From assembly GCF_010550695.1 (NCBI RefSeq), contig NZ_JAAGOB010000001.1:434001-498000 (forward strand): 64,000 nucleotides of DNA, written 5' to 3'. The stretch comes from Phytoactinopolyspora alkaliphila (lineage in GTDB: Bacteria; Actinomycetota; Actinomycetes; Jiangellales; Jiangellaceae). Each line of letters begins with the position of its first letter. Position 1 is the first letter of the stretch. Positions 42,370 through 63,138 of this stretch are shown here, piece after piece. Below the pieces are notes generated by a model, which was given only the letters and a program-made list of their open reading frames with translations, was not told the DNA's origin and did not search any database. A program made the position numbers and the translations under genes.

Positions 42370-44562
42370 ATGGTGGCTGATTACGACGTCTTGATGGTCT
42401 CGGACCTGAGGCTGCCCGGTGGTACCACGGCGAGCATGGCCGAAGAGATCAGGGCGCACTCCGCGGCGGGCTATCGCACCGCCCTTCTCCACGTCAACAG
42501 CTCGCTCACTGGTAAGGCACTGGGGTTCTCCGGTCATCTGGTGCGCCTCATCGAGGCCGGCTTAGCCGACCTGGTACTGCCCGGCGACCGCGTGCACGCC
42601 CGGCACGCTCTCGTGCGGCAGCCGATCGTGGCGCACGGCATGACGGACCCGCAGCGCGGACTCACCGTGGACGGTGTCAGTGTCATCGCGAATCACCCCG
42701 TGCGAGACGCCGCACAGGTCGAGCAGTACGACCCGGTCGCGGTGACGGAGAACATGGTGGCTTACTTCGGCCACAAGCCGGTGTGGCGACCGATCGGCCC
42801 GGTGGTGCGGCAGCAACTGCTGGAGTACGCCACCCGCTCGCAGATCAAACTCGCTGACACGGACTGGCGCAATCTCATCGACGTCGCGGCCTGGAGCCGA
42901 GATCGGTCGGGCGGTGTGGGCCCGGTGCCGGTCCTGGGCCGGCACAGCCGTCCACACCCCGCGAAGTGGCCGCGCAAGGCGGCAGACATCCTGGCCGCGT
43001 ACCCGGACGCGGAGGACTTCCGCGTGCGGATCCTGGGCGGTGCGGAACCGGCGTACAAGGTGCTGGGGCGGATACCCCGGCGATGGCTGGTCGAGCCGTT
43101 CGGTGCCCGCCATCCCGCGGACTTCCTCGCCGAGATCGACTTCTTCGTCTACTACCACCATCCCAGCTGGGTCGAGGCATTCGGCCGGAACATCATCGAG
43201 GCGCTCGCATCAGGCGCGGTGGCGATCCTTCCCGAGCACTTCCGGGAGACGTACGGCGACGCCGCTGTGTACGCGCAACCGGCCGAGGTGCGTTCCGTGG
43301 TCGCTCGTCTGGCCGCGGACCCCGACGCGTACGCCGAGCAGTCGACCCGCGGGCGGGAGTACGTCGCGTCCCGGCACGGCTTCCAGATGCACGTGGACCG
43401 GCTGGCGGCAGAGATCGGTGAGCCCGTGACGTCGTGGGCCGCCGGCACGCCGGCCCCGTCGCGGACGCGCGTCGGCACACCTCCCGCCCGGGTGCTTTTC
43501 GTCAGCAGCAACGGGACGGGCATGGGACACCTGACCCGGCTCCTGGCCATGGCCAACCGCACCAGCGAGCGGATCGAGCCGTTCTTCTTCTCCATGTCGT
43601 CCGCCGTCCCCGTCGTGGCGAAGTTCGGGTACCACTGGGAGTACTGCCCGTCGCGCGACGACCTGGACGTGACGGCGAGGGAGTGGAACCCGTTCTTCGC
43701 CGCTCGCTTCGTGGACGTGATACGACGCTTCCAGCCGAAGGCGCTGGTCTTCGACGGGACCTGGCCGTACCGAGGATTCGGTGAAGCCAAGGAGATCTTC
43801 CCCGAGCTGGTGTACATCTGGTCGCGGCGGGCGATGTGGGTGCCTGAGCATCGCACCGACGGCTTGGACAAGTCAGCATGGTTCGACCTGGTCATCGAGC
43901 CCGGTGAGATCGCGGCGGAGGCGGACCGCGGCCCGACGGTGGGCCGCGAGGACGCGAGAAGGATCGGACCCGTCACGTTGCTCGACCACGCGGATCTGCT
44001 CAGCCGTGAGCAGGCCCGGGCCGAACTCGGCATGGACCCGGACGAGCAGGCCATGCTCGTGACTCTCGGTGGCGGAAACGCGAACGAGCTCGGGCCGGAT
44101 CTCGAGGCCATTGCCACGGTGATGGAACGGCGGCCCGGCTGGACGGTGTACGCCACACGCGCGCCGATCGCCCGGGCCGCGATGACGCACGCCGACATCC
44201 GTACGATCTCGCCGTATCCGCTCAGCCGGGTGATGCGCGCGTTCGACGTGGCGGTGGTGGCGTGCGGCTACAACGCGTACCACGAAACCATCATGGCCGG
44301 GGTGCCCACCATCTTCGTCCCCAAGCCGAAGGTCACCGACGATCAGTTCGCCCGGGCACGCTACGCGGGTGAGGCAGGTCTGGGAGTGAGCGTGGAGGAT
44401 GTCTCCCCGGTGGCGATCGAGGGCGCTCTCGCGCGGCTGCTCGCGCCGGGGGAGAGCGAGCGCATCCGCGACCGGTGCGCTGCCCTGTACCCGGAGAACG
44501 GCGCCGCCGACGGCGCGGCGCTGCTGGAGAACGTACTGGTGAAGAAGGGCGTGATCCGATGA
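42370..44562 (+). CDS. Tandem GT-B glycosyltransferase (GT4-like + GT28-like)
   Basis: A 730-residue protein with two glycosyltransferase units. The first half is GT4-like: YDVLMVSDLRLPGGTTASMA, and the E-x7-E motif at E269-E277 in VEAFGRNIIEALASGAVAIL. The second half from ~373 resembles GT28/MurG: RVLFVSSNGTGMGHLTRLLA, LVTLGGGNANELGPD and the donor-site CGYNAYHETIMAGVPTIFVP. Each half seems complete, so two sequential sugar transfers are plausible. Starts at GTG 42364 or ATG 42370 follow AAGGG. Its stop overlaps the next ATG. Confidence 0.85.
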   Translation: MVADYDVLMVSDLRLPGGTTASMAEEIRAHSAAGYRTALLHVNSSLTGKALGFSGHLVRLIEAGLADLVLPGDRVHARHALVRQPIVAHGMTDPQRGLTVDGVSVIANHPVRDAAQVEQYDPVAVTENMVAYFGHKPVWRPIGPVVRQQLLEYATRSQIKLADTDWRNLIDVAAWSRDRSGGVGPVPVLGRHSRPHPAKWPRKAADILAAYPDAEDFRVRILGGAEPAYKVLGRIPRRWLVEPFGARHPADFLAEIDFFVYYHHPSWVEAFGRNIIEALASGAVAILPEHFRETYGDAAVYAQPAEVRSVVARLAADPDAYAEQSTRGREYVASRHGFQMHVDRLAAEIGEPVTSWAAGTPAPSRTRVGTPPARVLFVSSNGTGMGHLTRLLAMANRTSERIEPFFFSMSSAVPVVAKFGYHWEYCPSRDDLDVTAREWNPFFAARFVDVIRRFQPKALVFDGTWPYRGFGEAKEIFPELVYIWSRRAMWVPEHRTDGLDKSAWFDLVIEPGEIAAEADRGPTVGREDARRIGPVTLLDHADLLSREQARAELGMDPDEQAMLVTLGGGNANELGPDLEAIATVMERRPGWTVYATRAPIARAAMTHADIRTISPYPLSRVMRAFDVAVVACGYNAYHETIMAGVPTIFVPKPKVTDDQFARARYAGEAGLGVSVEDVSPVAIEGALARLLAPGESERIRDRCAALYPENGAADGAALLENVLVKKGVIR

Positions 44563-48705: not shown

Positions 48706-50040
48706 ATGAGTAGTGACCAGCAGTTCAGTACGTTTCCAGAACACGGGTCGCCAGCGGGGGAGGTGAACGAACAGCTCCGAAGTCGTGGAGCGGGCGACGT
48801 CGACTGGCGCAACGGACGGATCTGGAGCCTGGTCTACTCGGCGGGCGCGGAGCACGACGACGTCGTGCACGACGCGTACCGCAGGTTCGCCTCGGAGAAC
48901 ATCCTCGGCCCCACCGCATTCCCCAGCATCGCCACCATGGAGAAGGAAGTGGTGTGGATGCTGCTTGACTTGCTGGGCGCCGACCCTGCCGTCTCCGGTG
49001 GGACCATGACATCTGGTGGCACGGAGAGCATCATCCTCGCGGTCAAGGCGTATCGGGACCGCGCTCGGGCCGAGCGTCCCGAGGTCGCCGTGCCGGAGAT
49101 GGTGGTGCCCGTCACGGCGCATCCCGCGTTTCTCAAGGCGGCCGACCTCCTCGGTGTCCGCCCGGTCCCGGTGCCGGTCGACGAGTCGTTCCGGGCGGAC
49201 TCGGTGGCCTTCGCGGACGCAATGTCGGACTCGACGATTCTCGGCTGCGCTTCGGCACCGTGCTTTCCCTACGGTGTGGTCGATCCGGTGACGGATCTCG
49301 GCGCGATCACGCAGGAACGCGGGATCGGGCTGCACATCGACGCCACCATCGGCGGCTTCGCCTTGCCATTCGTGAGGGAGTTGGGGTACAAGGTCCCGGA
49401 CTTCGACTTCACGGTGCCAGGCGTCACCTCCATCACGGCGGATATGCACAAATACGGCTACGGACCGAAAGGCTCGTCGAGCATTCTCTACCGGGACCGC
49501 AGCCTGCGCCGCTTCCAGTTCGCCGCCTACACCGATTGGCCCGGTGGCATTCTGGCGTCGCCGACCCTGCTCGGCACCCGCCCGGGAGGTGCCATCGCCG
49601 GCGCCTGGGCGGCCATCGTCTACGAGGGAAGAGCCGGATACCGGGAGATCTTCTCCACCGTGATGCGGACCACCGAACGGATCCAGGAAGGCGTACGGGC
49701 AGTGCCAGGACTGCACATCGTGGGTGAGCCCCCGATGAGCGTCTTCGCGGTGGCATCGGAGCAGGTGGACATGATGGCGGTCGCAGACCGGATGGAGAGC
49801 CGGCAGTGGCGAATCGACCGGCAGCGCGATCCGGACAGCATCCACCTGATCGTCAACCCCACGCACGCGCCGGTCGCCGAGGACTTCCTCCGTGATCTGC
49901 GCTGGGCAGTCGCCGACGCCCCACCCGCGTCGTCGGCGGACAACCGCGCCACGCTGTACGGCGTGACGTCGCGGATCGATGCCGGAGCAGATGTCCGCAC
50001 AGCCGTTCTGGACCAACTGGAAAGCCGATACGACACGTGA
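48706..50040 (+). CDS. PLP-dependent decarboxylase/lyase of the S1P-lyase type
   Basis: A 444-residue fold-type I PLP enzyme of the group II decarboxylase/sphingosine-1-phosphate lyase branch. PTAFPSIATMEKEVVWMLLD, TMTSGGTESIILAVKAYRDR and PVTAHPAFLKAADLLGVR are typical. The Schiff-base Lys249 is in SITADMHKYGYGPKGSSSIL with HIDATIGGFALPF ahead of it. It should cleave or decarboxylate an amino-alcohol or amino acid, perhaps phosphorylated. Its stop overlaps the GTG of a second PLP enzyme, so the pair is co-translated. The native substrate is unknown; lipid catabolism is one option. Confidence 0.85.
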   Translation: MSSDQQFSTFPEHGSPAGEVNEQLRSRGAGDVDWRNGRIWSLVYSAGAEHDDVVHDAYRRFASENILGPTAFPSIATMEKEVVWMLLDLLGADPAVSGGTMTSGGTESIILAVKAYRDRARAERPEVAVPEMVVPVTAHPAFLKAADLLGVRPVPVPVDESFRADSVAFADAMSDSTILGCASAPCFPYGVVDPVTDLGAITQERGIGLHIDATIGGFALPFVRELGYKVPDFDFTVPGVTSITADMHKYGYGPKGSSSILYRDRSLRRFQFAAYTDWPGGILASPTLLGTRPGGAIAGAWAAIVYEGRAGYREIFSTVMRTTERIQEGVRAVPGLHIVGEPPMSVFAVASEQVDMMAVADRMESRQWRIDRQRDPDSIHLIVNPTHAPVAEDFLRDLRWAVADAPPASSADNRATLYGVTSRIDAGADVRTAVLDQLESRYDT

Positions 50041-52181
50041 CCGACGCATCGCTGGCTCCGGCCGTCCTCGAATCCACCGGCAAGACCCCTCCTGTTCCGT
50101 GGCCCGTCATCGAGGCGTGCGGGCTGCCGGAGATCGGCGCCCGCCTTTCCGGGTTCTCGGTGCGGATCGACCCTCAACTGAGCCGCCCCTTCGCGGTGGC
50201 TCCCGGCAACGTCACGATCCGGCCGGACAGGGCAGCCACCGTGACGGGTGCGGCCCTGATCTTGCGAGAGGCGATCGAGCTCGGTGAGAAGGGAATCACG
50301 GAGGCCGCGTGGGCCGACCGGATCCTGGCCCACGCCACCGCGGTGGTGTTCGGCGCCACCGGGCTGGCCGGTCGCGCCGAGAGCGCGGCGTGCGCAGCCT
50401 TCTCACCGTTGAGTGCCGATGCGGCAGAGATCATCGCCCTGCATGACCGGATCGGCTCGGCCGGCTCGGCCGCGACCGCCCGCTCGGCCGGCTCGGCCGC
50501 GACCGCCCGCGACCTTGCCGAGCGGATCGCGCGCTTCCTGCGCGAGCGGGACGAGTCAGCCGACGAGTGCCCGCCGGGCGAGATCGAGCGGGCCGCCCGA
50601 GCCCTGCCGTTCTCGCCCCCGGCAGAGGTGCTGATCGCCAGCGGCGGCGACAGCCGGCAGAGCGTGGACTGGTTCAGCGGCTGCAACTCGTACGGTGTCT
50701 CGCCCAGCCCCACGCCATGGACGGCCCTGTTCGGCTCGTGCACCGCGTCGTCGCCGACGGTGCGTGCGTTCGACGCCGCAGCCGGCCTGCGCCGCCGGCT
50801 CATCGACGCGGCCCTGGCCGACGACATCGAGGCGATGGTCAGCACATACACGGCGGCGATGCGTACCACACTGCTCACCGCGCTGGGCGTCACGGCACCC
50901 GTCGAGGTCGTGTTCACACCGTCGGGAACCGACGCCGAGCTCGTGCCGCTTCTGATCGCGCTGTCAGAGGGTGAGCCCGTCCACTCGGTCGTCGTCGGCC
51001 AGCACGAGATCGGCAGTGGGGGCGTGTACGCCGCTGCTGGGAGGCACTTCTGTGATCGGCTGCCCTCCGGGGAGGCAGGACAGGCAGGAGCCCCGGTCGG
51101 CGGTCTGGACTCCTCGGCGGTGGTGACGTCCGTCGTCGACGTGCGCGGTGACGACGGACAGATGCTCCGGCCGCAACACCTGGAGGAGTTGATCGAGGAG
51201 GCGATCGACGCATACCCCGGCTATCGGAGTCTGGTGCACGTGGTGGAGGGCTCGAAGACCGGTATCCGGCTTCCCCGGCACGAGACGGTTCGAGCCTGGC
51301 GGCAGCGGTACGGTGACCGGCTGGACGTGGTCGTCGATGCCGCTCAGATGCGTGTCGACCAGCATACGGCCGCGGCGCACGTGCGGGACGGGCACATCGT
51401 GATCGTCACCGGCTCCAAGTTCTTCGGCGGTCCGCCGTTCTCCGGTGCTGTGATCATTCCGGCTCACCTGGCGGCCCGGCTCGCGTCCGGCCGGCAATTG
51501 CCTGCCGGGGTGGCCGGGTACCTCAGGCGGTCCGATGTCCCCGCGTCGCTCCCGGACCTGCACGCCGTGGCCAAACCGGGAATGAACGCGGGCCTGCTGC
51601 TGCGCTGGGAAGCCGCCCTTGCCGAGATGCGCTCGTTTCACAATGCTTCACCGGAGATCCGGGACGAGGTGCTGCGCGTCCTCGCGTCGGGCCTGCGGCG
51701 CATCGTCGAGGAGACACCGTGGGTGTCGCTGGTGGAGAGCCCCTATACGGCCATTCCCGATCCGGACCGCCGTGGTCTGGACGACCTGCCGACCATCTTC
51801 ACGTTCCTGGCCATCGGCGCCGACGGGCGCCCCATCACCATGGAGCAGGCGAAGGTAGTGCACCGGCTCCTCAGCCAGGACCTGCGTGACATTGTCCCGG
51901 TCAACGAGCCCGTGCTGCGGCGCACATTCCAGCTCGGGCAGCCGGTGCGGATTCTGCGCCGCGGCGACGCCTGGCTGGCAGGGCTGCGGCTGGCAGTCGG
52001 CGCCCCCACGGTGTCGGAGATCGTCTTCGACCACACCCGCGGCCGGGTCTGGACCGAACGGCTCGAACGGACCCTCGCGGACAGCGCCGACGCGCTGCGC
52101 AAGCTCGGACTCATCCTCGAGCACCTGGATCTCGAGCAGACCGCCGATACGGACGGAGGATCCCCACGATGCCTGGCATGA
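50037..52181 (+). CDS. Large PLP-dependent enzyme with unusual N-terminal domain
   Basis: A 714-residue protein. The C-terminal ~500 residues look like a fold-type I (class V-like) PLP enzyme. It has VEVVFTPSGTDAELVPLLIA, YRSLVHVVEGSKTGIRLPRH, DVVVDAAQMRVDQHTAAAHV and the Schiff-base Lys461 in VIVTGSKFFGGPPFSGAVII. About 180 N-terminal residues are extra and match nothing I know; they contain an AGS-AATAR tandem repeat. It starts at GTG 50037, overlapping the S1P-lyase-like gene, and its end overlaps cysH by 13 bases. It may be a desulfurase, aminotransferase or decarboxylase. Confidence 0.75.
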   Translation: MTDASLAPAVLESTGKTPPVPWPVIEACGLPEIGARLSGFSVRIDPQLSRPFAVAPGNVTIRPDRAATVTGAALILREAIELGEKGITEAAWADRILAHATAVVFGATGLAGRAESAACAAFSPLSADAAEIIALHDRIGSAGSAATARSAGSAATARDLAERIARFLRERDESADECPPGEIERAARALPFSPPAEVLIASGGDSRQSVDWFSGCNSYGVSPSPTPWTALFGSCTASSPTVRAFDAAAGLRRRLIDAALADDIEAMVSTYTAAMRTTLLTALGVTAPVEVVFTPSGTDAELVPLLIALSEGEPVHSVVVGQHEIGSGGVYAAAGRHFCDRLPSGEAGQAGAPVGGLDSSAVVTSVVDVRGDDGQMLRPQHLEELIEEAIDAYPGYRSLVHVVEGSKTGIRLPRHETVRAWRQRYGDRLDVVVDAAQMRVDQHTAAAHVRDGHIVIVTGSKFFGGPPFSGAVIIPAHLAARLASGRQLPAGVAGYLRRSDVPASLPDLHAVAKPGMNAGLLLRWEAALAEMRSFHNASPEIRDEVLRVLASGLRRIVEETPWVSLVESPYTAIPDPDRRGLDDLPTIFTFLAIGADGRPITMEQAKVVHRLLSQDLRDIVPVNEPVLRRTFQLGQPVRILRRGDAWLAGLRLAVGAPTVSEIVFDHTRGRVWTERLERTLADSADALRKLGLILEHLDLEQTADTDGGSPRCLA
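50457..50510 (+). repeat. Perfect 27-bp tandem duplication in the large PLP gene
   Basis: Two identical 27-base copies (50457-50483 and 50484-50510) encode SAGSAATAR twice. The unit keeps frame, sits in the novel N-terminal domain and, being exact, is recent. It probably lies in a flexible loop. Confidence 0.95.
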
Positions 52182-52861
52182 CCACCGATGGGCTTCGCAG
52201 AGTGGCCGAGGCCGCAGCGCGCGACCTCGACACCGCGAGCGCGCACGACATCGTCCGGTGGGCGAATGAGACGTTCGGCGCGGGTTTCGTCGTCACCGCC
52301 TCGATGGCCGACGGGGTGCTGTCCCACGTGGCCTCCCAGGCGGTGCCGGGGATCCGGGTGCTGTTTCTGGACACCGGGTACCACTTCGCGGAGACCATCG
52401 GCACCCGGGACGCGGTCGCGTCTGCCTACGACGTAGACGTGCACACCGCCCGGCACCCGCTCCCGGTGGCCGACCACGAGGCCAGCTACGGCAAGCTCTA
52501 CGAGACCTATCCGGACCTGTGCTGCGCCATGCGCAAGGTGTTCCCACTCGACCAGGCGCTGCGCCCGTTCGACGCCTGGGCCAGCGGAGTCCGTCGGGCG
52601 GAGTCGGACGGCCGGCAGACGGCCTCCGTGGTCGGCTGGGATGCCCGCCGTCGCAAAGTCAAGGTCAACCCACTTGCGGCGTGGACCGACGAGCAGGTCG
52701 AGGCCTACATCGAGGAGCACGCCATCCTGGTGAACCCGCTACGGCAGCTGGGTTACACATCGATCGGGTGCGCGCCGTGCACCCGGCCGGTGGCCGACGG
52801 CGAGGATCCCCGGGCGGGGCGCTGGGCCGGCCGGTCGAAGACCGAATGCGGAATTCACTGA
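52169..52861 (+). CDS. cysH: Adenylyl-sulfate (APS) reductase
   Basis: A 230-residue assimilatory reductase that turns APS into sulfite with thioredoxin. The PP-loop-like start VVTASMADGVLSHVASQAVP and VLFLDTGYHFAETIGTRDAV are conserved. The cysteine pattern CC (DLCCAMRKVFPL) with C-A-P-C (IGCAPCTRPVADG) marks the [4Fe-4S] class, so APS rather than PAPS is the substrate. The catalytic cysteine is in the terminal ECGIH. The start ATG follows GGAGG at nine bases. No sulfite reductase or cysD/N gene is adjacent. It is translationally linked to two PLP enzymes, which is unusual for sulfate assimilation. Confidence 0.92.
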   Translation: MPGMTTDGLRRVAEAAARDLDTASAHDIVRWANETFGAGFVVTASMADGVLSHVASQAVPGIRVLFLDTGYHFAETIGTRDAVASAYDVDVHTARHPLPVADHEASYGKLYETYPDLCCAMRKVFPLDQALRPFDAWASGVRRAESDGRQTASVVGWDARRRKVKVNPLAAWTDEQVEAYIEEHAILVNPLRQLGYTSIGCAPCTRPVADGEDPRAGRWAGRSKTECGIH

Positions 52862-52889
52862 CGGCCCGGTCACGCCGCTGACGGTTCGC

Positions 52890-53885
52890 TCACGCGCGGC
52901 CGAGGTACAGGGGCTCGACGCGCTCCGTGCCCGCAGTGCCGGTTTTGTGCGGCGTCGCCCGGGCCGACGCCCACCGTGGGGAGTCGAGATAGTGATCCAG
53001 GATCGCTCCCGCGACGTCGCATGGCTCTCCGTCGGTGGGGAACTGCGCCACCGGTACCGCCGAGCAGTCCACGTAGGTCACCACCGGTGAACCAGCCGCG
53101 GCGCCGGCGCGGACGGGTTCTGGAGCGATCACGTCCACGGTGCCGTATGCCATGCCCGGCAGCGCCTGGACGGCTGCCACAGCGACCGCCCGCACGGCCG
53201 CGGCGTCGCCGTCGCGGGCCGTGTCCTCGGCGGTCTGGTGGGGCGGGGCGAGGTTGACCAGCCGGCCGTGAGCGGGCGTGGTGGAGCCGTGCCGGAACAC
53301 CCGGGTCTGTCCCGGAGGCACCCCGACGAGCTCGGTGACGGCGGCGACGTTGCCCGCGACGACGAAGACCTGCATGCGGCGGCCGCCGATCTCTTCGCGC
53401 ACCAGGACGGCGTCGGCGGCGGTCGTGTGCGAAGAACCGGTGCGGGTGGCTTCGATGCTGGCTTGCCATGCGTCGCGGAACGCGGTCGCTCCGGTCACGT
53501 CGGCGGTGGCACCGTCGTCGCCCGACGCGCGCGCGGGGCGCACCGTCACCGGCCAGCCGAGACCGCGGGCGTAGGACAGGGCGGGCTTCCGCTGCTCCGT
53601 GGTGAATACCGACCACCGCGGCACGGGCACGCCGCGGGCGGTGAGCAGGGTGTACAGGGTGTCCCGGTGAGTGCGCATCAGCTGCGCGGTCTCGCTCGTG
53701 TCCGGGCCGTTGACGCCGTGGAAGGGAACGACGGCGGCGCCGAGCCGGACGAGGACGATCTGCCGGTTGAACCGGCGCACCTCAAGGCCTCGTCGCAGCG
53801 CCGCATGCTCGAGCAGCGCGGACGCGAGACCACAACGGGCCGGCACGGCGTCGCCGACGAATTGCTCCACGCTCGGTAACGTCAT
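52890..53885 (-). CDS. Degenerate ATP-grasp protein
   Basis: A 331-residue protein of ATP-grasp shape that lost key residues. The N-domain (RHRDTLYTLLTARGVPVPRW) and DAVLVREEIGGRRMQVFVVA are recognisable. The ATP lysine strand reads GWPVTVRPARASGDDGA (Arg or Thr where KP is usual), and the metal-binding E-x-N reads TYVDCSAVPVAQFPTDGEP (Asp/Ser). It may be a pseudoenzyme subunit. Its ATG overlaps the stop of the enolase/ATP-grasp/acylphosphatase fusion (ATGA), so the two are coupled, probably as a complex. It converges with cysH across 28 bases. Confidence 0.75.
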   Translation of the reverse strand: MTLPSVEQFVGDAVPARCGLASALLEHAALRRGLEVRRFNRQIVLVRLGAAVVPFHGVNGPDTSETAQLMRTHRDTLYTLLTARGVPVPRWSVFTTEQRKPALSYARGLGWPVTVRPARASGDDGATADVTGATAFRDAWQASIEATRTGSSHTTAADAVLVREEIGGRRMQVFVVAGNVAAVTELVGVPPGQTRVFRHGSTTPAHGRLVNLAPPHQTAEDTARDGDAAAVRAVAVAAVQALPGMAYGTVDVIAPEPVRAGAAAGSPVVTYVDCSAVPVAQFPTDGEPCDVAGAILDHYLDSPRWASARATPHKTGTAGTERVEPLYLGRA

Positions 53886-56434
53886 GGCAGAACCTCGAAC
53901 CGATCGGTGGCGGGCAGGTCGGGAAGGTGCGTGGTGCGCACCTGAGTGACGACGGCGCGCCGTGACCCCAGGATCGCGCTCGAGGCGAGCACGCAGATCT
54001 CCGCGGCGGGACCGGACGCGAGCACCTCCACGCCTCCCTCGGGGAGGTTGCGGATGGAGCCGGTCACCTGCCGTTCCTGTGCCATCGCGGCGAACCACGC
54101 ACGGTACCCGACATTCTGCACCCGGCCGTCCACCTCGATGCGCACCGTCAGGCGGTCCCGCGGTGCACCCGGGTCGAAGCCCGCGAGGGAGCAGCTGCGC
54201 AGTACCAGATCGCTGGAGACGTCACGCGGAGTTCCGGCGAGCGGGAAGTGGTTGAACGTCGTGGCGGGGTTGCCGTTGACCTCGATGATGGCCGCCGGAT
54301 GGCCGTCCACGGCGCGTAGGTGATCACCCATCAGGTCGATTCCGGCATGGTCGAGGCCGGGGACCGCGTGGACCGCGCGTACAGCCAGCTCGAGCATGCT
54401 CGGGTGGGTCTCGTCCAGGACCTCGATGCTCTCGCCACCGGCGGCGATGTTTCCCGCGCTGCCGAGGCGCACGAACCGGCCCTCGTCAGGGACGCTGTCC
54501 GGAGTGAGGCCCTGCCGGCCGAGCCAGTACATCGCGTCGCCGCCGAAGCCGAGCAGGCAGCTGCGGGTGTGCGGGTTCTCCAGCCGCCACCGGTTCTTCT
54601 CGAGCACCAGGTCGACCACGCGGGAGCTGCCGTCGCCCACCACCGAGGCGGGCCGCTTGAGAACGACCGACACGACCTGGTCGCCCACGACGAGGAGCCG
54701 GTAGTCGTCACCCGGGATGAACGTCTCGACGATGAACGGACGGCCCCGGAAGGCGGTCGAGTCGAGCGCCGCGATCGCCGCACGGACCTCGGCTTCGGTG
54801 CGCAGATCGGTGGAGACGCCGGTGCCGTGGATGCCGTTGCGTGGCTTCACGACGACAGGAGCCGCCAACGACAGCGCGTACTTGACGGCGTCGTCGACCT
54901 GATGTGCGTCGAACGCGGTGCCATGCGGGACCGGGACGTCCATATCCTGCAGGAGCGTCCGCGTGAGTTCCTTGTCGACCGTGGCCCGGTGCGCCGGCCG
55001 GCCGGTCCAGGGCGACTTGCTGGGCGTGAAGCACAGTGGCATGGGCAGGTCGTGATGGTCGACGACGAGTTCCCGGCTGTTCATCCGGACGGTATCGAGG
55101 CCGCGGGACAGGGCCGCGCGCTCGACCAGCGGGCTGGCGAACCTGATCTCGCCCTTCGGGGTGACGAAGGGCAGCAACGGGTCGACGTCGAACACGTTGG
55201 CCGGGCGCCCGCCGTAGCTCATCGGCCGCACTGGGGTCGCGGGGCCCGCCGCGAAACGAGTGAGTGCCGCCACGGCCGAGGTGAGCACGAGCGAGCCGTC
55301 CTCGGCGAGACGGACCCCGTCCGCCGCCGTCCGCGGCACGGCTACGTAGTCCAGCCCGGGCATGCCGGTCGCGACGTCGCTCAGCGCCCGGGCTCCCACG
55401 TCGGAGATGTGCGGTACGTCGCCGAGTCCGAGCCGGACGGCGGCCCCGAGGCGGTCCCGAATCTCCGCCGCGACCCCGAGGACGGCCTGAGCGCCGCCGA
55501 GACGCTGCGGACTGAGGCTGAGGCTCCGGACGCCGGCGGCCGCGAGCTCGCGCGCGTGGTGGTCGGTGGCGACGCCGGCCATCACCACGACGCCAGGTCC
55601 CGGTGCAGGATCCACCTCCGGCGGCGGCGCCGCCGCCTGCAACTCCAGCAGCGACTGAGTCTCGGCGGGGCCGGCGGGTTGCTCCACGACCACGTGGGGC
55701 GGGAGAACCCCGGCGGCGATGCGGGCGAGCAAGGTCTCGACCAGCGTGAGCAGCTGCGGCTGCGGCTGGGGCCGGCCGAAGCCGAGCCAGATCACCCCTG
55801 GGCCGTCGAAGACTTTCGCCGCACGTAGCGCCAGGGCCAGCGCGGTCTCGCAGTCCGGAACATCCGCCAGCTTGATCGCCGAGCCGGCCCGGGCGGCGAT
55901 CGCCTTGTGAAGCTTGCGTTCGGGCAACGAGGCGCTGACCACGTTGACAGGCATGGGGGAGCGCGACCCGGCGGGCGGCGTGGGAGCACCGGCACCGAGC
56001 AATTCGGCAACGGTGCAGCCGGCCGCCTTGGCGGCCAGGTCCAGGAGCGCGGACTCCAGGCCCGCCAGGATGCCCCGGTAAGGCTGTTCGGTGGTGCTCT
56101 TCGTGCTCGTCCGGACCGCGAGCTGCCTGAGCTCAACCATGAGTCCGGCGATGTCGTCGCGTGCGTCTGCCGGGCGACGCCGCAGCTCTGCACCCTCGAG
56201 TGCACCCAGCGCCGCCTCCAGGAACCGCCAAGATCCCACCCGGGTGTCTCCCGTGATGGTCCATCCCCGGGGCGCCGCCTCGCCGATTCCCTGGACCGGC
56301 TGACCCTGCGGTGTGGCGTCGAGGCGGACGATCACGTTGTGGGCGTACAGGTCACCGCGGCGGGGGCCTCGCGAGTTCGGCACCCGGAACTGCATGGCGG
56401 ATGCCTGGGTCACCGTGGTTCTCTTTCGCAGCAC
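53882..56434 (-). CDS. Enolase-fold - ATP-grasp - acylphosphatase fusion
   Basis: An 850-residue protein of three domains. Residues ~15-400 are mandelate-racemase/muconate-lactonising-like (AGLESALLDLAAKAAGCTVA, LGGAQAVLGVAAEIRDRLGA). The KxK site keeps only K188 (A190 for the second), E251 remains (VVEQPAG), but the next acid is replaced (M285-A-G), so it is likely inactive. Residues ~440-740 are cyanophycin-synthetase-like ATP-grasp with K530 (VVVKPRNGIHGTGV) and E718-x-N720 (IIEVNGNPATTFNHFPLAG). Residues ~760-850 are acylphosphatase with R778 (GYRAWF) and N796 intact. It probably forms an amide through an acyl phosphate. The GTG start at 56434 is uncertain; ATG at 56395 is possible. Confidence 0.85.
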   Translation of the reverse strand: MLRKRTTVTQASAMQFRVPNSRGPRRGDLYAHNVIVRLDATPQGQPVQGIGEAAPRGWTITGDTRVGSWRFLEAALGALEGAELRRRPADARDDIAGLMVELRQLAVRTSTKSTTEQPYRGILAGLESALLDLAAKAAGCTVAELLGAGAPTPPAGSRSPMPVNVVSASLPERKLHKAIAARAGSAIKLADVPDCETALALALRAAKVFDGPGVIWLGFGRPQPQPQLLTLVETLLARIAAGVLPPHVVVEQPAGPAETQSLLELQAAAPPPEVDPAPGPGVVVMAGVATDHHARELAAAGVRSLSLSPQRLGGAQAVLGVAAEIRDRLGAAVRLGLGDVPHISDVGARALSDVATGMPGLDYVAVPRTAADGVRLAEDGSLVLTSAVAALTRFAAGPATPVRPMSYGGRPANVFDVDPLLPFVTPKGEIRFASPLVERAALSRGLDTVRMNSRELVVDHHDLPMPLCFTPSKSPWTGRPAHRATVDKELTRTLLQDMDVPVPHGTAFDAHQVDDAVKYALSLAAPVVVKPRNGIHGTGVSTDLRTEAEVRAAIAALDSTAFRGRPFIVETFIPGDDYRLLVVGDQVVSVVLKRPASVVGDGSSRVVDLVLEKNRWRLENPHTRSCLLGFGGDAMYWLGRQGLTPDSVPDEGRFVRLGSAGNIAAGGESIEVLDETHPSMLELAVRAVHAVPGLDHAGIDLMGDHLRAVDGHPAAIIEVNGNPATTFNHFPLAGTPRDVSSDLVLRSCSLAGFDPGAPRDRLTVRIEVDGRVQNVGYRAWFAAMAQERQVTGSIRNLPEGGVEVLASGPAAEICVLASSAILGSRRAVVTQVRTTHLPDLPATDRFEVLP

Positions 56435-56491: not shown

Positions 56492-58816
56492 TCACACCGT
56501 CACGGTGAGCTCCGTGGTGCCGGCCGGAGCCTCGGCGACGAGATCCGTGCCGGCGACCGTCGCGCTCCATGCGGCCGGGAACCGACCGGCGAAGACGGCG
56601 CGCACGATGACACTGGAACCGCGTCGAGCCACGTGGAAAGTGCTGTGCCCGGCCCCTTCGGCGTCGGGGATCGTGAGCGTCGAATCGTGCCCGTCGGCGA
56701 GTTGGTACAGATGCAGCGTGAGGCCGTCGGCGTAATCGTAGTCCGGTCGCGCATCGACGGCGCCCAGCGGCAGGACCGTGTCCGGGCGGACCAGGAGCGG
56801 GAGACTGCCGATGCTGTGCGTCTCGGTCAGCCAGCGGCCGCCGTCGAACGTGCCTCCGTCCAGCAGGGACGTCCAGGTTCCGCTGGGCAGGTAGTACGAC
56901 ACCTCGCCCGATGCCGACATCACGGGGGCGACGAGCAGCCGGTCGCCCAGCATGTACTGCAACTCCAGGTGTGTCGTCGCCCGGTCCTCCGGGAACTCCA
57001 GTGCCATCGGCCGCATGACCGGGACACCATCGCCGTACGCCTCGCGTGCCGCGGCCGACAGGTACGGCATCAGCCGCATCTTGAGTTTGGTGAAGGTCCG
57101 CAGGATGTCGACCGCCTCGTCGTCGAACTCCCACGGCACCCGATACGAGCCGGAACCGTGCAACCGGCTGTGCGAGGAGAGCAGGCCGAACGCGCACCAG
57201 CGTTTGAAGACCACGGGGTCGGGGATGTTCTCGAACCCGCCGATGTCGTGGCTCCAGAAGCCGAAACCGGACATGGCCAACGACAGCCCGCCGCGCAGGC
57301 TCTCCGCCATCGAGGCGAACGTGGAGTCGCAGTCGCCGCCCCAGTGGACCGGGAACTGCTGCCCGCCCGCGGTCGCGGATCGGGCGAACACGACGGAGCC
57401 GTCGTCGCCCTTGTGCTCGCGCAGCACGTCGAAGACGGTCTCGTTGTACAGGTGCGTGTAGTAATTGTGCATGCGCTGCGGGTCGGCGTCGTCGTGCCAC
57501 ACCACGTCCGTGGGGACGCGCTCGCCGAAATCGGTCTTGAACGCGTCGACGCCCATCTGGAGGAGCCGGCGAAGATGCCCGGCGAACCACTCCCGGGCCC
57601 GCGGATTGGTGAAGTCGACCAGAGCCATCCCGGCCTGCCACATGTCCCACTGCCACACCGAGCCGTCGGGCCGCCGAACCAGGTAACCCCTCGCCTTGCC
57701 TTCGGCGAACAGCGGGGACCGCTGCGCGATGTAGGGGTTGATCCACACGCAGATGTTCAGCCCCCTTCCCTTCAGGCGCTTGAGCATCCCCGGCGGGTCG
57801 GGGAACGTGCGCGGGTCCCACTCGAAGTCGCACCAGTTGAACTCGCGCATCCAGAAGCAGTCGAAGTGGAAGACACTCAGCGGGATGTCCCGCTCGGCCA
57901 TGCCCTCGACGAAGGACGTGACCGTGGCTTCGTCGTAGTCGGTGGTGAACGACGTCGACAGCCACAGCCCGTACGACCACGCCGGCACCCGTGCTGGACG
58001 CCCCGTGAGTGCCGTGTAGCGAGTCAGGATCTCCTTGGGCGACGGACCGTGGATGACGTAGTACTCCAGCTCCTGGTCCTGGACGCTGAACTGGGTGCCG
58101 GCCACGATCTCGGAGGCGACCTCGAAGGAGACCAGCCCCGGGTGGTTCACGAACACGCCGTAGCCCGCGTTCGTCAGGTAGAACGGCACATTCTTGTAGG
58201 CCTGCTCCGTGGCGGTGCCGCCGTCGTTGTTCCAGATGTCGACCACCTGCCCGTTCTTCACCAGTGGCCCGAACCGCTCGCCGAGCCCGTAGACCGCGTC
58301 GCCGGGGTTCAGATCGAGCCGCTCCACGACATGGTGCCCGCCGTCGGGCATCGTCATGAATCCCATGCTCTTCGGGCCCGACGATGTCAGCACACGCTCC
58401 TGTCCGGTGGCCCGATCCGTGGCGACGAAGTCCAGCCGCCACGTGTCGCCGCGATGCACACGGGCGGTGAGCGAGCCGCTGGTGAGCTCGGCGACATCGT
58501 CGTCCACCCGGATCGACGCGCGATCCTTGCCGTCGGCAGCGCCGGCACCCGGCAGCGCGAAGTGCGGAGGGCGCTCCCGGCCACCGGCATGATGGGTGAG
58601 CCGGACACCGACGACCCCGGGCGCGGGGGAGAAGAGCCGGATCGTGGCCATGGGCCGGTTCAGGGTGTCGCCCCGGTGCCTGATCCGCCTGGTCGGCGCG
58701 TATACCGTCAGCGACGCGTCGCCGGACTCGGTCCCTGCCTGGACGTCATAGGCCTGCGCCGGATGCAGCGCCTGGACTCCGGGGCGCATGCCCCAGTAGC
58801 CGTCGGTGAACTTCAA
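56492..58816 (-). CDS. GH31 alpha-xylosidase/alpha-glucosidase
   Basis: A 774-residue cytoplasmic glycoside hydrolase family 31 enzyme of the YicI type. The N-domain has YGLGERFGPLVKNGQVVDIW, then PAWSYGLWLSTSFTTDYDEA. The nucleophile Asp is in GVDAFKTDFGERVPTDVVWH and the acid/base region in VFARSATAGGQQFPVHWGGD. FHFDCFWMREFNWCDFEWDP sits at the substrate pocket. There is no signal peptide. It is the last gene of an importer operon, 22 bases after a permease. It would cleave imported isoprimeverose- or alpha-glucoside-type disaccharides. Confidence 0.92.
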   Translation of the reverse strand: MKFTDGYWGMRPGVQALHPAQAYDVQAGTESGDASLTVYAPTRRIRHRGDTLNRPMATIRLFSPAPGVVGVRLTHHAGGRERPPHFALPGAGAADGKDRASIRVDDDVAELTSGSLTARVHRGDTWRLDFVATDRATGQERVLTSSGPKSMGFMTMPDGGHHVVERLDLNPGDAVYGLGERFGPLVKNGQVVDIWNNDGGTATEQAYKNVPFYLTNAGYGVFVNHPGLVSFEVASEIVAGTQFSVQDQELEYYVIHGPSPKEILTRYTALTGRPARVPAWSYGLWLSTSFTTDYDEATVTSFVEGMAERDIPLSVFHFDCFWMREFNWCDFEWDPRTFPDPPGMLKRLKGRGLNICVWINPYIAQRSPLFAEGKARGYLVRRPDGSVWQWDMWQAGMALVDFTNPRAREWFAGHLRRLLQMGVDAFKTDFGERVPTDVVWHDDADPQRMHNYYTHLYNETVFDVLREHKGDDGSVVFARSATAGGQQFPVHWGGDCDSTFASMAESLRGGLSLAMSGFGFWSHDIGGFENIPDPVVFKRWCAFGLLSSHSRLHGSGSYRVPWEFDDEAVDILRTFTKLKMRLMPYLSAAAREAYGDGVPVMRPMALEFPEDRATTHLELQYMLGDRLLVAPVMSASGEVSYYLPSGTWTSLLDGGTFDGGRWLTETHSIGSLPLLVRPDTVLPLGAVDARPDYDYADGLTLHLYQLADGHDSTLTIPDAEGAGHSTFHVARRGSSVIVRAVFAGRFPAAWSATVAGTDLVAEAPAGTTELTVTV

Positions 58817-58838
58817 CGTGTGGTTCCTTTCGCGGGTG

Positions 58839-59735
58839 TTACTTGACGGCGCCTGCGGAGATGCCGCGTGCCAGCGTGCGCTGGAAGAACAGGAAGAACA
58901 GGATGGCCGGGACGACGCCGAGGAGAGCCGCGGCGCTGGTGGTGGTGGCGTCCATGAGCCGGTCGCCCTCCAGTACGCCGAGCGCCACTGGAACCGTCTG
59001 CTTGTCGTTGGACACCAGGAAGATCAGGGGGATGAAGAACTCGTTCCAGGTCCAGATGAAGAAGAACACGACCAGGACGGAGAGGGTGGGCCGGCTCATC
59101 GGGAACACGACCCGCCACAGGATCTGCCATTTCGACGCTCCGTCGAGCGCGGCGGCCTCGAGCATCTCCTTCGGGAAGGTGCCGAACACCGACGCCAGGA
59201 GGTAGGTGCCGAACGCACTCTGGATCACTGTGAAGATGATGATCACCGCGAGCTGGGTGTTGTACAGGCCCACCTCGTTGGCGATGAAGTACAGCGGGTA
59301 GATCAGCGCCTCGTGCGGGAGCATGTTGGCGATGAGGAAGAGCACCACGATGCTCAGCCGGCCCTTCACCCGTCCGATGCCCAGCGCGTAGGCGTTGAAC
59401 AGGGAGACGAGCACGGCGAGGATCGCCACTGAGCCCGCGATCATGAACGAGTTCCACAGCTTCTGGCCGAAGTTGACCCGATTCCAGAAGTTGATCATCC
59501 CGTCCACATAGAACTCGGTCGGGATGGCGAGCGGTCCGGCGCCGGAGTATTCGGCCGGAGTCTTGAACGCGTTGAGCACGATCACCGCGAACGGGAAGAG
59601 CATCGCCGCAGCCGCGATCACCAGCAACGCCAGCACGATCCAGCGGCCCACGCCGCGGTGGTGGCGGTCCTTGCGGCGGGGCAGCGCCGGGCCGGGGGCG
59701 CTCGAAGACGGGGGAGCCGTACGGGTGGCGGTCAT
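58839..59735 (-). CDS. Sugar ABC transporter permease (MalG type)
   Basis: A 298-residue protein with six membrane helices starting WIVLALLVIAAAAMLFPFAV. The ATPase-docking loop is EAAALDGASKWQILWRVVFP. MLPHEALIYPLYFIANEVGL and FFIWTWNEFFIPLIFL are typical of this half-transporter. A proline- and arginine-rich N-terminus precedes helix 1. Its ATG overlaps the preceding permease stop (ATGA). Confidence 0.93.
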   Translation of the reverse strand: MTATRTAPPSSSAPGPALPRRKDRHHRGVGRWIVLALLVIAAAAMLFPFAVIVLNAFKTPAEYSGAGPLAIPTEFYVDGMINFWNRVNFGQKLWNSFMIAGSVAILAVLVSLFNAYALGIGRVKGRLSIVVLFLIANMLPHEALIYPLYFIANEVGLYNTQLAVIIIFTVIQSAFGTYLLASVFGTFPKEMLEAAALDGASKWQILWRVVFPMSRPTLSVLVVFFFIWTWNEFFIPLIFLVSNDKQTVPVALGVLEGDRLMDATTTSAAALLGVVPAILFFLFFQRTLARGISAGAVK

Positions 59736-60703
59736 CGGCCTCGCTCCTTGCGCTCGCTCGCCGCCTGGAAGCGGATGAAGATGATGCTGAGCACGATGAT
59801 GATCAGGGTGAGGATGGTGGAGATCGCGGCGCCGTACCCGACGTTCGCCCGCTCGAAGAAGTTCTGGTAGGCAAAGTAGGACGGCACGTTGGTGGCGTGC
59901 CCGGGCCCGCCCCCGGTGAGCACGTAGACCGGCCCGAAGACCTTCATCGCCGCGATCGTGGCGGTGAGCGCGACCACGAACATCTCGGGTCGGATCTGCG
60001 CGATGGTGATCGCCCGGAATCGCCGCCACCAGCCGGCGCCGTCGAGCTCCGCGGCTTCGTAGAGGTCCGGGTCGACCCGCTGGAGAGCGGCCATGAAGAT
60101 CACGACCGGGTACCCGATCTGGACCCAGACCAGGATGGCCATCACGCTCGGCAGGGCCGTGGACGGGTCACCGAGCCAGTTCTGCGCCAGGTCCCCGAGT
60201 CCCACGGCCTCCAGGAGCGTGTTCAGGGCACCGTTCTGGGGCCGGAGGATCCAGCCCCAGACGATGCCGGCCACGGCGACGGGCAGAATCTGCGGGAGAT
60301 AGAACATCGCCCGCAGAGCGCTGGCCGTGCCGTTGCCGAACCGCTTGCCGACGACGTCGAAGAGCACGGCCGCGAGGACGAGCCCGATCGCCGTCGGGAC
60401 GATCACCATCGCCACGATCATGGCCACCGAGTTGCGGAACGACGTCCAGAAGGTGTCGTCGGCGAACAGGCGCGTGTAGTTGTCGAACCCGATCCAGGTG
60501 ATGTCGCCGACGCCTGGCCATCGCGCCATGCTCAAGCCCAGGTTCATCACGAACGGAACGATGATGACCGCGGCGAACAGCAGCCCGCCCGGCACCAGGT
60601 AGAGCCAGTAGACGGGACTGCGTTCGCCGATGCCCGTCCTGGTGCCGCCGCGGGATGCCTTGGCCCTCGTCGTCTTCGCTCGGGAAGGACTCGTGGTGGC
60701 CAT
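59732..60703 (-). CDS. Sugar ABC transporter permease (MalF type)
   Basis: A 323-residue permease with a long basic N-terminus (SRAKTTRAKASRGGTRTG) before helix 1 (YWLYLVPGGLLFAAVIIVPF). The helices continue through VAMIVAMVIVPTAIGLVLAA, and the docking loop is YEAAELDGAGWWRRFRAITI. FFERANVGYGAAISTILTLI ends the core. It pairs with the MalG-type subunit encoded downstream. No ATPase gene is present in the cluster. Confidence 0.93.
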   Translation of the reverse strand: MATTSPSRAKTTRAKASRGGTRTGIGERSPVYWLYLVPGGLLFAAVIIVPFVMNLGLSMARWPGVGDITWIGFDNYTRLFADDTFWTSFRNSVAMIVAMVIVPTAIGLVLAAVLFDVVGKRFGNGTASALRAMFYLPQILPVAVAGIVWGWILRPQNGALNTLLEAVGLGDLAQNWLGDPSTALPSVMAILVWVQIGYPVVIFMAALQRVDPDLYEAAELDGAGWWRRFRAITIAQIRPEMFVVALTATIAAMKVFGPVYVLTGGGPGHATNVPSYFAYQNFFERANVGYGAAISTILTLIIIVLSIIFIRFQAASERKERGR

Positions 60704-60719
60704 GATGAGTTCCTGCCGT

Positions 60720-62039
60720 CTAGTTGAGGAAGTCGTCGACGCCGGTGTCGTAGGACGCCTGCAGTTCGCTGAGGACGTCGTCGACCGACGCGCTCTGGTT
60801 GATCAGCTGCTGGATGGCGCTGGCTAGATCGTCGTAGAAGCCGGGAGCCGGCCAGTCGGGGTAGAACGCAAGCCCGTCCACCTCGTTGACCTGGTTGAAC
60901 AGCGAGATGAGCTCGGTGCTCTTCTCATCTTCGATGTCCGCCGGGTCGGCCGCCACCGGCACGCCGCCGTTGTTGCCGAGCGTTGCCTGGATCTCCGGTC
61001 GCATCGTGATGTCGATGAACTGGTAGGCCAGCTCCTGGTTCTCCGACGCGGTCGGGACCACCCAGATGTTGCCACTGGAACCTGGGTGCAGATCGGCGCC
61101 GGGGAACGGGAAGATGCCCCACTCGAAGCCGTCGATCTCGTCGGTGAACCGCCCGTACCACCACGATCCGGAGAAGAGCATCGGATAGTCACCGGCGATG
61201 AACGAGGTGCCCATGTCCTCCGCGGTGAGACCGGCCGAGAAGTCGTCGATGTAGCCGGCCTTCACCCACGTGTCGAACTCCTCGGCGCCGTGGCGCAGGA
61301 CCGGGCCGGAGAAGTCCACCGGGTTCTCGTAGAGCTGGTAGTCGTTGACGAACTGCCGGTCACCCTCGGTGAGCGCGAGCTGGTAGAACAGCTGGCCGGC
61401 CGGGTACTCGGCGCCGGACATGGCAAACGGCGTCACACCCTCGGCCACGAAGGAGTCCATCGCCGCGACCAGGTCGTCATAGGTCTCCGGGATCTCGACG
61501 CCGTGCTCGTCGAACAGATCCTGGTTGTAGTAGACCATCACGAACTCGCCGTAGTTCGGCACGCCGTACCACGCGCCCGAGCCCATGACGCCGCGCTCGT
61601 CGTACCTGACCGTCGTCTGCAGGCTCTCCGACAGCATCTCGTCCCAGCCATACTGCTCGACGGCCTCCGAGATGTCCGTCAGCAGGCCCTGGGAGGCGAG
61701 CAGCCCGGCGGAGGCGTTGCCCTTGTTGTACTCCATGAGGTCGGGCGCCTCACTGGTGTTCAGGATCATATTGGCGGACTGCCGGATCTGCTCGAAGGCC
61801 TTCTCCTCGAACTCGACGGTGGCCCCGGTCTCCTCCTCGAAGACCTGGATCGCCTCGTCCCAGGCGATGCCCATGGCGCTGTTCTCGCCCTCGTAGTGCC
61901 AGAGCGTCAGCGTGCCGCCTTCTCCGCCGGCGGAGGTGTCGCCACCGGAGCCGCCGTTGTCGTCACCGCCGCAGGCGGCGAGGACGAGGGCCGTCGCGGC
62001 CAGGAAAGCCGTGCCGGCCAGGATGCGTCGTTGTGCCAT
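60720..62039 (-). CDS. Sugar ABC transporter substrate-binding lipoprotein
   Basis: A 439-residue family 1 binding protein. The signal ILAGTAFLAATALVLAACGG has lipobox LAAC. TLTLWHYEGENSAMGIAWDE opens the fold and EEETGATVEFEEKAFEQIRQ follows. MEYNKGNASAGLLASQGLLT and GDYPMLFSGSWWYGRF are typical of maltose- or xylose-type binders. It is the first gene of the LacI-regulated operon and probably captures the oligosaccharide that GH31 cleaves. The ribosome-binding site overlaps a short stem (62047-62060). Confidence 0.9.
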   Translation of the reverse strand: MAQRRILAGTAFLAATALVLAACGGDDNGGSGGDTSAGGEGGTLTLWHYEGENSAMGIAWDEAIQVFEEETGATVEFEEKAFEQIRQSANMILNTSEAPDLMEYNKGNASAGLLASQGLLTDISEAVEQYGWDEMLSESLQTTVRYDERGVMGSGAWYGVPNYGEFVMVYYNQDLFDEHGVEIPETYDDLVAAMDSFVAEGVTPFAMSGAEYPAGQLFYQLALTEGDRQFVNDYQLYENPVDFSGPVLRHGAEEFDTWVKAGYIDDFSAGLTAEDMGTSFIAGDYPMLFSGSWWYGRFTDEIDGFEWGIFPFPGADLHPGSSGNIWVVPTASENQELAYQFIDITMRPEIQATLGNNGGVPVAADPADIEDEKSTELISLFNQVNEVDGLAFYPDWPAPGFYDDLASAIQQLINQSASVDDVLSELQASYDTGVDDFLN

Positions 62040-62103: not shown

Positions 62104-63138
62104 TCATGGCGTGTGATTCATGGGTAGGCGTGCCGGGCCGGTGGTGGACTGCACATCAAGCCGGCACGGAATCAGTGTGTGCAGCGCTGTGGCGCCCGTT
62201 CCTTCGATCTGGGCGATGAGCGAGGTGACCCCGAGCCGGCCGAGCTCGGTGCCGGGAGCGGACATCGTGGTGAGCCGCGGATGGCTGAGTGCCCCCACCC
62301 GCGGTGAAGAGACGATCGACAGCACGGACATGTCGTCCGGGATCCGTTTCCCGCGCTCCAGGAGCTCGGCCATCGCCCCGAAGGTGGCGGCGTCGTTCAT
62401 GGTCATGAGCGCGGTCACCCGCGGATGGCTGGCGGCCAGACCGGCCGTCGCGATCCGGCCCGCGTCAGCCGACTCGTCGCAATGGCGCACGACGACGGAA
62501 AGCCCGCGCTCGGTCATGTACCGCTCGAACGCCGCGCCCACCCGGACCGTCGGCCCGTACCCCGCGTCCAGACTGGCCCGCGAGTGGCTGAGCAGTGCGA
62601 TGTCGCGGTGCCCCAGTGCGGTGAGGTGGTCCAGGGCGTCACGGACAGTGGTCTCGAAATCGATGTCCGCATAGTGAAGGGTGTCCGGGTCCTCCGTCCG
62701 TCCGATCAGTGTGAACGGGGTTCCGACCTCGTGCAGCAAAGCAACGCGGGGATCATCGAGACGGACTTCCATCACCAGCGCGCCGTCGGCCAGCCCTTGC
62801 TGAAGGAGTTCGCGGGTCTCGTGGCCCTCCTGGTCGTTCACGGGCCAGAGAACGAGGTGATAGCCCCGCTCGCGTGCCGTCTCGGCGGCCGAGGTGACGA
62901 ACTCGAGTGCCGTGCCGGACAAGCCCCGCTCGATGGCGGGGAAGAGCATCGCGAGGATGTGAGTTCGCCGGCTGGCGAGGCTACGGGCGATCGCGTTGCG
63001 CTGATAGCCGAGCTGGTCCATGGCCGCCTGGATCCGCGCCCGCGTCTTCTCCGACACCGGGCGGACGCCGGTGAGCGCATAGGAGACCGTGCTCAGGGAT
63101 ACGCCCGCCAGGTTGGCGACGTCGTGCATCGTAGCCAT
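62104..63138 (-). CDS. LacI-family transcriptional regulator
   Basis: A 344-residue repressor. The N-terminal HTH (MHDVANLAGVSLSTVSYALT) is followed by the hinge GYQRNAIARSLASRRTHILA. The periplasmic-binding-like effector domain has LRMLFPAIERG-like AMLFPAIERGLSGTALEF and later VTALMTMNDAATFGAMAELL. It precedes the alpha-glycoside importer operon on the same strand and probably represses it until the sugar binds. Three TCGAAACG repeats lie in its own leader. GGGAGG is five bases before the ATG. Confidence 0.93.
   Translation of the reverse strand: MATMHDVANLAGVSLSTVSYALTGVRPVSEKTRARIQAAMDQLGYQRNAIARSLASRRTHILAMLFPAIERGLSGTALEFVTSAAETARERGYHLVLWPVNDQEGHETRELLQQGLADGALVMEVRLDDPRVALLHEVGTPFTLIGRTEDPDTLHYADIDFETTVRDALDHLTALGHRDIALLSHSRASLDAGYGPTVRVGAAFERYMTERGLSVVVRHCDESADAGRIATAGLAASHPRVTALMTMNDAATFGAMAELLERGKRIPDDMSVLSIVSSPRVGALSHPRLTTMSAPGTELGRLGVTSLIAQIEGTGATALHTLIPCRLDVQSTTGPARLPMNHTP

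Follow-up and report, generated by a model that had tools for sequence, protein, structure and literature searches.

The stretch of the Phytoactinopolyspora alkaliphila genome analysed here, hereafter the window, comprises 64,000 nucleotides (contig NZ_JAAGOB010000001.1, positions 434,001 to 498,000) and carries on its reverse strand a gene that joins an enolase-fold, an ATP-grasp and an acylphosphatase domain. Its frame runs through 850 codons without interruption, and the protein is conserved over its whole length in related genomes, with 57% identity across query residues 2-848 in genome G001 and 53% across residues 1-848 in genome G005. Pfam identified Acylphosphatase (PF00708) at residues 765-847 (E 6e-13, 49.3 bits against a cut-off of 22.5) and ATP-grasp_3 at residues 487-725 (E 7e-7), and the NCBIfam model for cyanophycin synthetase, NF010623, matched residues 482-744 (E 3e-58) with a score of 197.6 bits, well short of the family cut-off of 877. 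The enolase part alone gave a sub-threshold Pfam match to MR_MLE_N (E 0.009); the enolase domains of relatives match MR_MLE_C (E 1.6e-8 at locus L022 and 2.9e-19 at locus L057). In an AlphaFold model built from 24 aligned sequences (mean predicted local distance difference test (pLDDT) 88.1, predicted template modelling score 0.86), residues 4-394 superpose on the muconate lactonizing enzyme (MLE) 3i6e (Z 32.2, 325 residues at a root-mean-square deviation (rmsd) of 2.8 A) and residues 6-398 on the dipeptide epimerase 3q45 (Z 31.8), showing the two-part fold with barrel of the MLE subgroup. The top structural match of the ligase domain, residues 423-755, is 7wae, a cyanophycin synthetase structure with bound ATP analogue, chain and aspartate (Z 32.3, 28% identity, rmsd 2.6 A over 317 residues). 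The enolase identity of the N-terminal part follows from the MR_MLE_C scores of the relatives together with the superposition on 3i6e, and the matches at Z of about 32 therefore confirm the three-domain architecture. Thus, as the original prediction from the letters alone had proposed, the protein is a real, rare fusion of the three families. The features of the locus are presented in Table 1.

Table 1 Features in and around the fused gene (positions count from the first nucleotide of the window)
Feature	Position	Strand	Basis
Three-domain protein (enolase-fold, ATP-grasp, acylphosphatase), 850 aa	53882..56434	-	Open frame, Pfam, NCBIfam, AlphaFold model
Enolase-superfamily (MLE subgroup) barrel, residues 4-399	55238..56425	-	Model and structural alignment, residue audit
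Cyanophycin-synthetase-like ATP-grasp ligase domain with intact active site, residues 423-755	54170..55168	-	Profile, alignment, model
Acylphosphatase domain, residues 762-848, with R778 and N796	53891..54151	-	Pfam, alignment
Companion, 331 aa, degenerate ATP-grasp, 4-base overlap with fused gene	52890..53885	-	Profile search, residue audit
Alpha-xylosidase (GH31), ending 57 bases upstream of fused gene	56492..58816	-	Pfam, NCBIfam
Sugar-type ATP-binding cassette (ABC) importer: two BPD_transp_1 permeases and solute-binding protein	58839..62039	-	Profile search
LacI-family regulator	62104..63138	-	Profile search
MfnA-like pyridoxal phosphate (PLP) decarboxylase, convergent operon	48706..50040	+	Pfam, NCBIfam
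714-aa protein, probable PLP fold-type I enzyme, motif VTGSKFFGGPPFSG	50037..52181	+	Low-confidence model
Phosphoadenosine/adenosine phosphosulfate (PAPS/APS) reductase-like protein	52169..52861	+	One of three PF01507 matches in the genome
Protein with weak, sub-cut-off glycosyltransferase matches	42289..44562	+	Profile search

How widespread is this architecture? Whole-query matches in 60 genomes, the window's own included, were confined to its genus (five genomes, one with the match in split frames) and to a single genome from another genus in the family. In an even draw of 396 genomes across the phylum, with two candidates per genome scored, the full architecture was found in three actinobacterial genomes (its own and two others), which argues against a common architecture and agrees with the earlier impression that it is unusual. 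A motif scan of genome contigs, which is not a census, yielded 39 loci. Using our own domain models, three-domain genes with a long enolase match were assigned to 15 named actinobacterial genomes: four Phytoactinopolyspora, two Haloechinothrix, three Ruania, Ilumatobacter nonamiensis, Nesterenkonia alkaliphila, and metagenome-assembled genomes (MAGs) of Nitriliruptoraceae, Actinophytocola and Propionibacteriaceae (two, one of them Avipropionibacterium). Genomes named after salt, soda or alkali contribute 15 of the 39 loci, a raw count with no background rate, and further loci come from organisms known for such habitats; two of the loci belong to MAGs with bird-gut names. Two scans of viral contigs revealed no relative of the fused protein, and among the 60 matching records of a plasmid collection none matched 80% of the query at a single site. 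The titles, abstract openings and passages found in the literature do not describe the present three-domain architecture; a 2009 survey of ATP-grasp amidoligase operons by Iyer and colleagues could contain parts of it.

The ligase site of the window protein consists of K488, K530, E570, E718 and N720 (KKEEN), which includes the Lys, Glu and Asn expected of an ATP-grasp enzyme. The three residues already singled out in the original prediction, K530, E718 and N720, are unchanged in all 24 aligned three-domain proteins, and KKEEN is present in 77 of the 81 ATP-grasp domains fused to acylphosphatase. Family membership makes a ligase function of this domain almost certain. The overlapping companion gene has RRRYD at the positions of KKEEN. 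Of the 39 distinct three-domain genes for which a neighbouring gene was available (five proteobacterial genes with a short, weak enolase match and two actinobacterial genes with partial matches included), 30 are followed directly on the same strand, within 150 bases and mostly with overlap, by a further ATP-grasp gene; the companion site reads KKEES in 12 of these 30 and is eroded in all seven of the window's lineage.

Another important question is whether the enolase barrel could still be catalytic. Its site positions were set by aligning the Vreelandella domain with phmmer to MLE-subgroup enzymes of solved structure, and the catalytic set of the superfamily is taken to be a Lys base, three acidic metal ligands (Asp, Glu and Asp) and a second Lys. 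One of these five residues, E251, is left in the window protein; the base Lys is replaced by A190, two of the three metal acids by G218 and G287, and the second base Lys by S308. The loss suspected earlier is therefore wider than first described, the metal site is not kept, and the protein does not have the full residue set of an active MLE-subgroup enzyme. Because one catalytic residue of five remains, we consider the domain a pseudo-epimerase, and, judged by its residues, a dead epimerase is almost certain. A non-catalytic, scaffold-like role, as originally suggested, is likely given the lost enolase site beside an intact ligase. In comparison with dipeptide epimerases and muconate lactonizing enzymes, the family shares the fold, and eight relatives also share the base, metal and base residues, whereas the window copy retains one of the five and is fused to a ligase. 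These eight belong to a set of 45 distinct enolase domains, each with more than 300 matched residues; they carry all five catalytic residues and one common nine-residue signature, while three catalytic residues are found in 4 of the other 37 domains, two in 14, one in 14 and none in 5. Ligase fusions from Ilumatobacter, Ruania and Vreelandella, and one in the genome of the window itself, have intact sites. On a tree of 43 enolase domains the intact state needs three changes, which means at least three losses if the site was never regained.

The three domains have diverged at different rates. The window-type protein and its counterparts in three relatives are 38-44% identical in their enolase domains, 68-78% in their ligase domains and 49-58% in their acylphosphatase domains; the corresponding values for a second three-domain protein of the same genome, encoded in an island on contig C2, and four relatives are 53-60%, 88-91% and 74-81%. 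Intact enolase domains show 69-71% identity (two genome pairs), and two intact Ilumatobacter copies share 58% in the enolase and also in the ligase domain (a degenerate Ilumatobacter pair, with 27.5% in the ligase, was left out since different ATP-grasp domains had been paired). The faster drift of degenerate enolase domains fits a loss of catalytic constraint with retention of the fold. The window gene might also be a decaying duplicate of the island gene, heading for loss, as the erosion of both the enolase and the companion active sites and the fast enolase drift would allow. We consider this very improbable: the ligase domain has kept the identity given above and all audited active-site residues in the window and three related species, and one species carries three tandem copies.

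The acylphosphatase domain of the window protein scores above the Pfam cut-off and possesses the Arg and Asn of this family, R778 and N796, as had been noted at the outset; it differs from free acylphosphatases in being part of a ligase. Both residues are invariant in a smaller set of 15 proteins and variable in a wider one, where they occur together in 22 of the 34 enolase-fused copies from actinobacteria and 11 of the 14 enolase-free ones, in all five proteobacterial copies with a weak enolase match and two of the four others from proteobacteria, and in 5 of 27 copies from Bacilli, the distant Bacilli domains being aligned less surely. Since Arg and Asn are aligned in just these five of the Bacilli copies, the family probably does not depend on acyl-phosphate hydrolysis. 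Built-in proofreading, as first suggested, is conjectural, and an essential proofreader is weakened as a candidate by the absence of the pair from 22 Bacilli copies, subject to the same less certain alignment. In Ilumatobacter nonamiensis (locus L054, 2105-15254), four enolase-ATP-grasp-acylphosphatase genes are clustered, two with intact and two with degenerate enolase sites, and one of the intact-enolase genes lacks the acylphosphatase Arg and Asn; a division of labour among the four is possible.

What, then, does the family make? The C2 island holds, besides the second three-domain gene and its companion, genes for an AMP-binding enzyme, a glycosyltransferase, UDP-glucose dehydrogenase, an Asn-synthase-like protein, a 'sugar-transfer' ATP-grasp and an Asp/Glu racemase, and a single 1228-residue frame in which an intact enolase domain is joined to CapA and ATP-grasp. 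Islands akin to it, as judged by sequence clusters, occur in several other actinobacteria, and the genes common around three-domain genes are CapA, 'sugar-transfer' ATP-grasps, racemase, and UDP-glucose dehydrogenase or glycosyltransferases. The enolase domain is fused elsewhere to a TupA-like ATP-grasp (L047, Haloechinothrix), a Mur ligase (L058) and CapA (L034). Halomonas, Vreelandella and Sulfitobacter encode it in a gene of its own, which immediately precedes an ATP-grasp-acylphosphatase gene; in Halomonas, dTDP-rhamnose genes and a CapA-Mur ligase fusion surround this pair, and the separate enolase copies examined have one of the five catalytic residues. ABC exporter genes lie beside some relatives, and TupA-like genes are found in an island of Phytoactinopolyspora endophytica (L053) and at locus L061 of Halomonas.

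A storage role has to be weighed at this point, as cyanophycin synthetases (CphA1/CphA2) are the top matches in both sequence and structure, and the ATP-grasp part aligns with them over 317 residues with the active site kept. The window protein differs from them in its enolase-fold N-terminus and acylphosphatase C-terminus, has no Pfam match to a Mur ligase domain and falls far below the cyanophycin synthetase cut-off; together with the CapA and glycosyltransferase genes of the islands and the exporter genes beside some relatives, this makes an intracellular storage polymer synthetase improbable. With moderate confidence, we instead read the protein as an ATP-dependent amino-acid or peptide ligase whose family would attach acidic peptide chains, resembling teichuronopeptide or poly-gamma-glutamate, to glycans of the cell surface. 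A surface-polymer role is likely for the family and less sure for the window copy, for which we infer the polymer, the substrate and the role of the acylphosphatase.

The Bacilli relatives bear on this reading. A passage on teichuronopeptide describes it as poly-gamma-L-glutamate plus polyglucuronate, aiding pH homeostasis, with tupA as a synthesis gene (PMC8153356), and linked peptide ligases are credited with cyanophycin, peptidoglycan and teichuronopeptides as products (PMC4431377). At Virgibacillus locus L069, genes for an ABC permease, an ATPase, a glycosyltransferase and a TupA-like ATP-grasp (E 5e-72) are followed by tandem ATP-grasp-acylphosphatase genes, and a TupA-cluster gene precedes the ligase cluster at 7 of 10 Bacilli loci. 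We searched 159 genomes of the family of L069, accepting the ligase at E 1e-100 or better and TupA at E 1e-25 or better: the ligase was present in 34, TupA in 50 and both in 33, i.e. the ligase occurred in 33 of 50 TupA genomes versus 1 of 109 without TupA (Fisher p 2e-20, a value that ignores relatedness). In all 33 genomes the ligase starts 98-164 bases past the TupA domain on the same strand. The adjacent TupA frame has 455-509 aa in 32 copies and 284 in one; the 25 other TupA copies include 19 of 241-329 aa, one of 471 and five of 723-866. Thus, the ligase link is with the long TupA frame. An even class sample of Bacilli, in which three candidates per genome were scored for the ligase, gave the ligase in 2 and TupA in 16 of 398 genomes, and both ligase genomes have TupA. 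The family resembles the TupA locus of alkaliphilic Bacilli in the position of the ligase-acylphosphatase genes directly after TupA and in the TupA-like/enolase fusion of Haloechinothrix; it differs in that the Bacilli proteins examined have no enolase domain and the window genome no TupA.

Several observations weigh against a surface polymer, particularly for the window copy. Its surroundings differ from the islands, with a sugar importer and alpha-xylosidase upstream and a convergent PLP/PAPS-reductase operon; the 14 genes called from 44655 to 63804 gave no Pfam match to CapA, TupA or an exporter, and UDP-glucose dehydrogenase and glycosyltransferase genes lie ~9-20 kb away. No TupA was detected among the 28 window proteins scanned or anywhere in the genome with a model that matched 50 of the 159 L069-family genomes and none of 14 controls, and the window is accordingly not a TupA locus for teichuronopeptide synthesis. 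In the Bacilli class sample, 14 of the 16 TupA genomes lack the ligase; the 33 of 34 ligase genomes with TupA represent fewer independent events because the genomes are related; and TupA, the reported teichuronopeptide gene, could be the glutamate polymerase itself. To our knowledge, the product is known for no member of the family.

The neighbourhood of the window copy raises the possibility that its product, unlike that of its island relatives, is a small soluble peptide, for instance one serving as an osmolyte or bearing a sulfonate cap, with an amine supplied by the convergent operon, e.g. taurine formed via cysteate from serine and activated sulfate. The genes of this operon accompany fused genes across related genomes: the 714-aa gene in the window, G001, G002, G003 and G005, the PAPS reductase gene, one of three family matches in the genome, in the window, G002 and G003, and the MfnA-like decarboxylase gene in the window, G001, G003 and G005 (the coverage of G002 does not extend to this region). 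Sulfitobacter encodes an extended, 863-aa homologue of the 714-aa protein (L059, 3872-6463), close to enolase and ATP-grasp genes. The ATP-grasp domain also matches, below the cut-off, N-acetylglutaminylglutamine synthetase (E 1e-29), an osmolyte enzyme, and sugar import and glycosidase genes lie upstream; the alpha-xylosidase and fused genes possibly form one operon in this species. On the other side, the taurine route is conjectural, synteny within one family may be meaningless, and the 714-aa protein has no match in Pfam, NCBIfam or PDB sequences; its best model matches, to PLP fold-type I enzymes (E 7e-9), are a hint only because the model reaches a pLDDT of 56.5. The upstream genes vary among relatives, with a GH1 glycosidase immediately upstream of the fused gene in G002 and G005 and no glycosidase among the genes scanned in G001. 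On balance, we regard a soluble product as possible and rather unlikely.

If the surface-chain reading is adopted, the ATP-grasp domain would, by analogy with cyanophycin synthetase, phosphorylate a carboxylate, join an amine to it and so extend the chain. The ancestral enolase barrel may have been a dipeptide-epimerase-type domain inverting a chain residue; in the window protein, where residues and fold indicate that the metal site and both bases are gone, the barrel would be kept for chain binding or docking, and other proteins of the same kind apparently carry the active epimerase version. The acylphosphatase might hydrolyse, or bind, unused acyl phosphate, and the coupled pseudo-ligase and active ligase may form a heteromer.

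Passages of a 2013 review report that Bacillus halodurans makes L-poly-glutamate with a genome that has neither pgs nor cap operons, propose a yet unidentified system, e.g. an ATP-grasp synthetase, and state that amide ligases commonly have no isomerization activity toward residues of the growing chain (PMC3815933). The Bacilli ATP-grasp-acylphosphatase genes after TupA are concrete, deletable candidates for that predicted synthetase, TupA being another, and a ligase fused to an enolase domain with an intact site would bypass the isomerization limit. More speculatively, bacteria of salty and alkaline habitats may share an undescribed peptide-polymer machinery with an ATP-grasp-acylphosphatase core that includes the poly-gamma-L-glutamate synthetase of teichuronopeptide, and in actinobacteria and a Halomonas relative this machinery would bring its own peptide epimerase, fused to it; we put this forward tentatively and with some doubt. 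Were it true, a fused ligase would set residue handedness after joining, contrary to the printed view of amide ligases, and lineages that lost the epimerase site, among them that of the window protein, would be those whose polymers have their chirality fixed upstream. The window protein is in any case a natural example of an epimerase switched off with its fold retained.

Related domain combinations were also observed. In the G002 island (L030, 3285-8372), a 1695-aa protein combines ATP-grasp, acylphosphatase and CapA with further ATP-grasp stretches, and in Vreelandella nigrificans (L057, 8891-13051) a 1386-aa protein contains two ATP-grasp regions, acylphosphatase and an MmgE/PrpD domain pair. 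The top plasmid match, a 1660-aa 'hypothetical protein' of Agrobacterium tumefaciens pAt (CP048491.1; L021, 16296-21278), has a YheC/D-type and two further ATP-grasp regions and no enolase match, and its gene adjoins a type I secretion system and a BapA-prefix gene. In the window itself, the glycosyltransferase-like protein of Table 1 shows 44% identity to two genes of the C2 island, and its gene adjoins that of a beta-lactamase-fold protein with an ORF_12_N domain (45138-46502). Finally, two Paceibacterota MAG contigs of similar gene order (L078, 5993-8974, and L080) carry cyanophycin-like ATP-grasp genes adjoining a gene for a protein that resembles MATCAP, the microtubule-associated tyrosine carboxypeptidase, and L078 also encodes an ATP-grasp/zinc-protease fusion.

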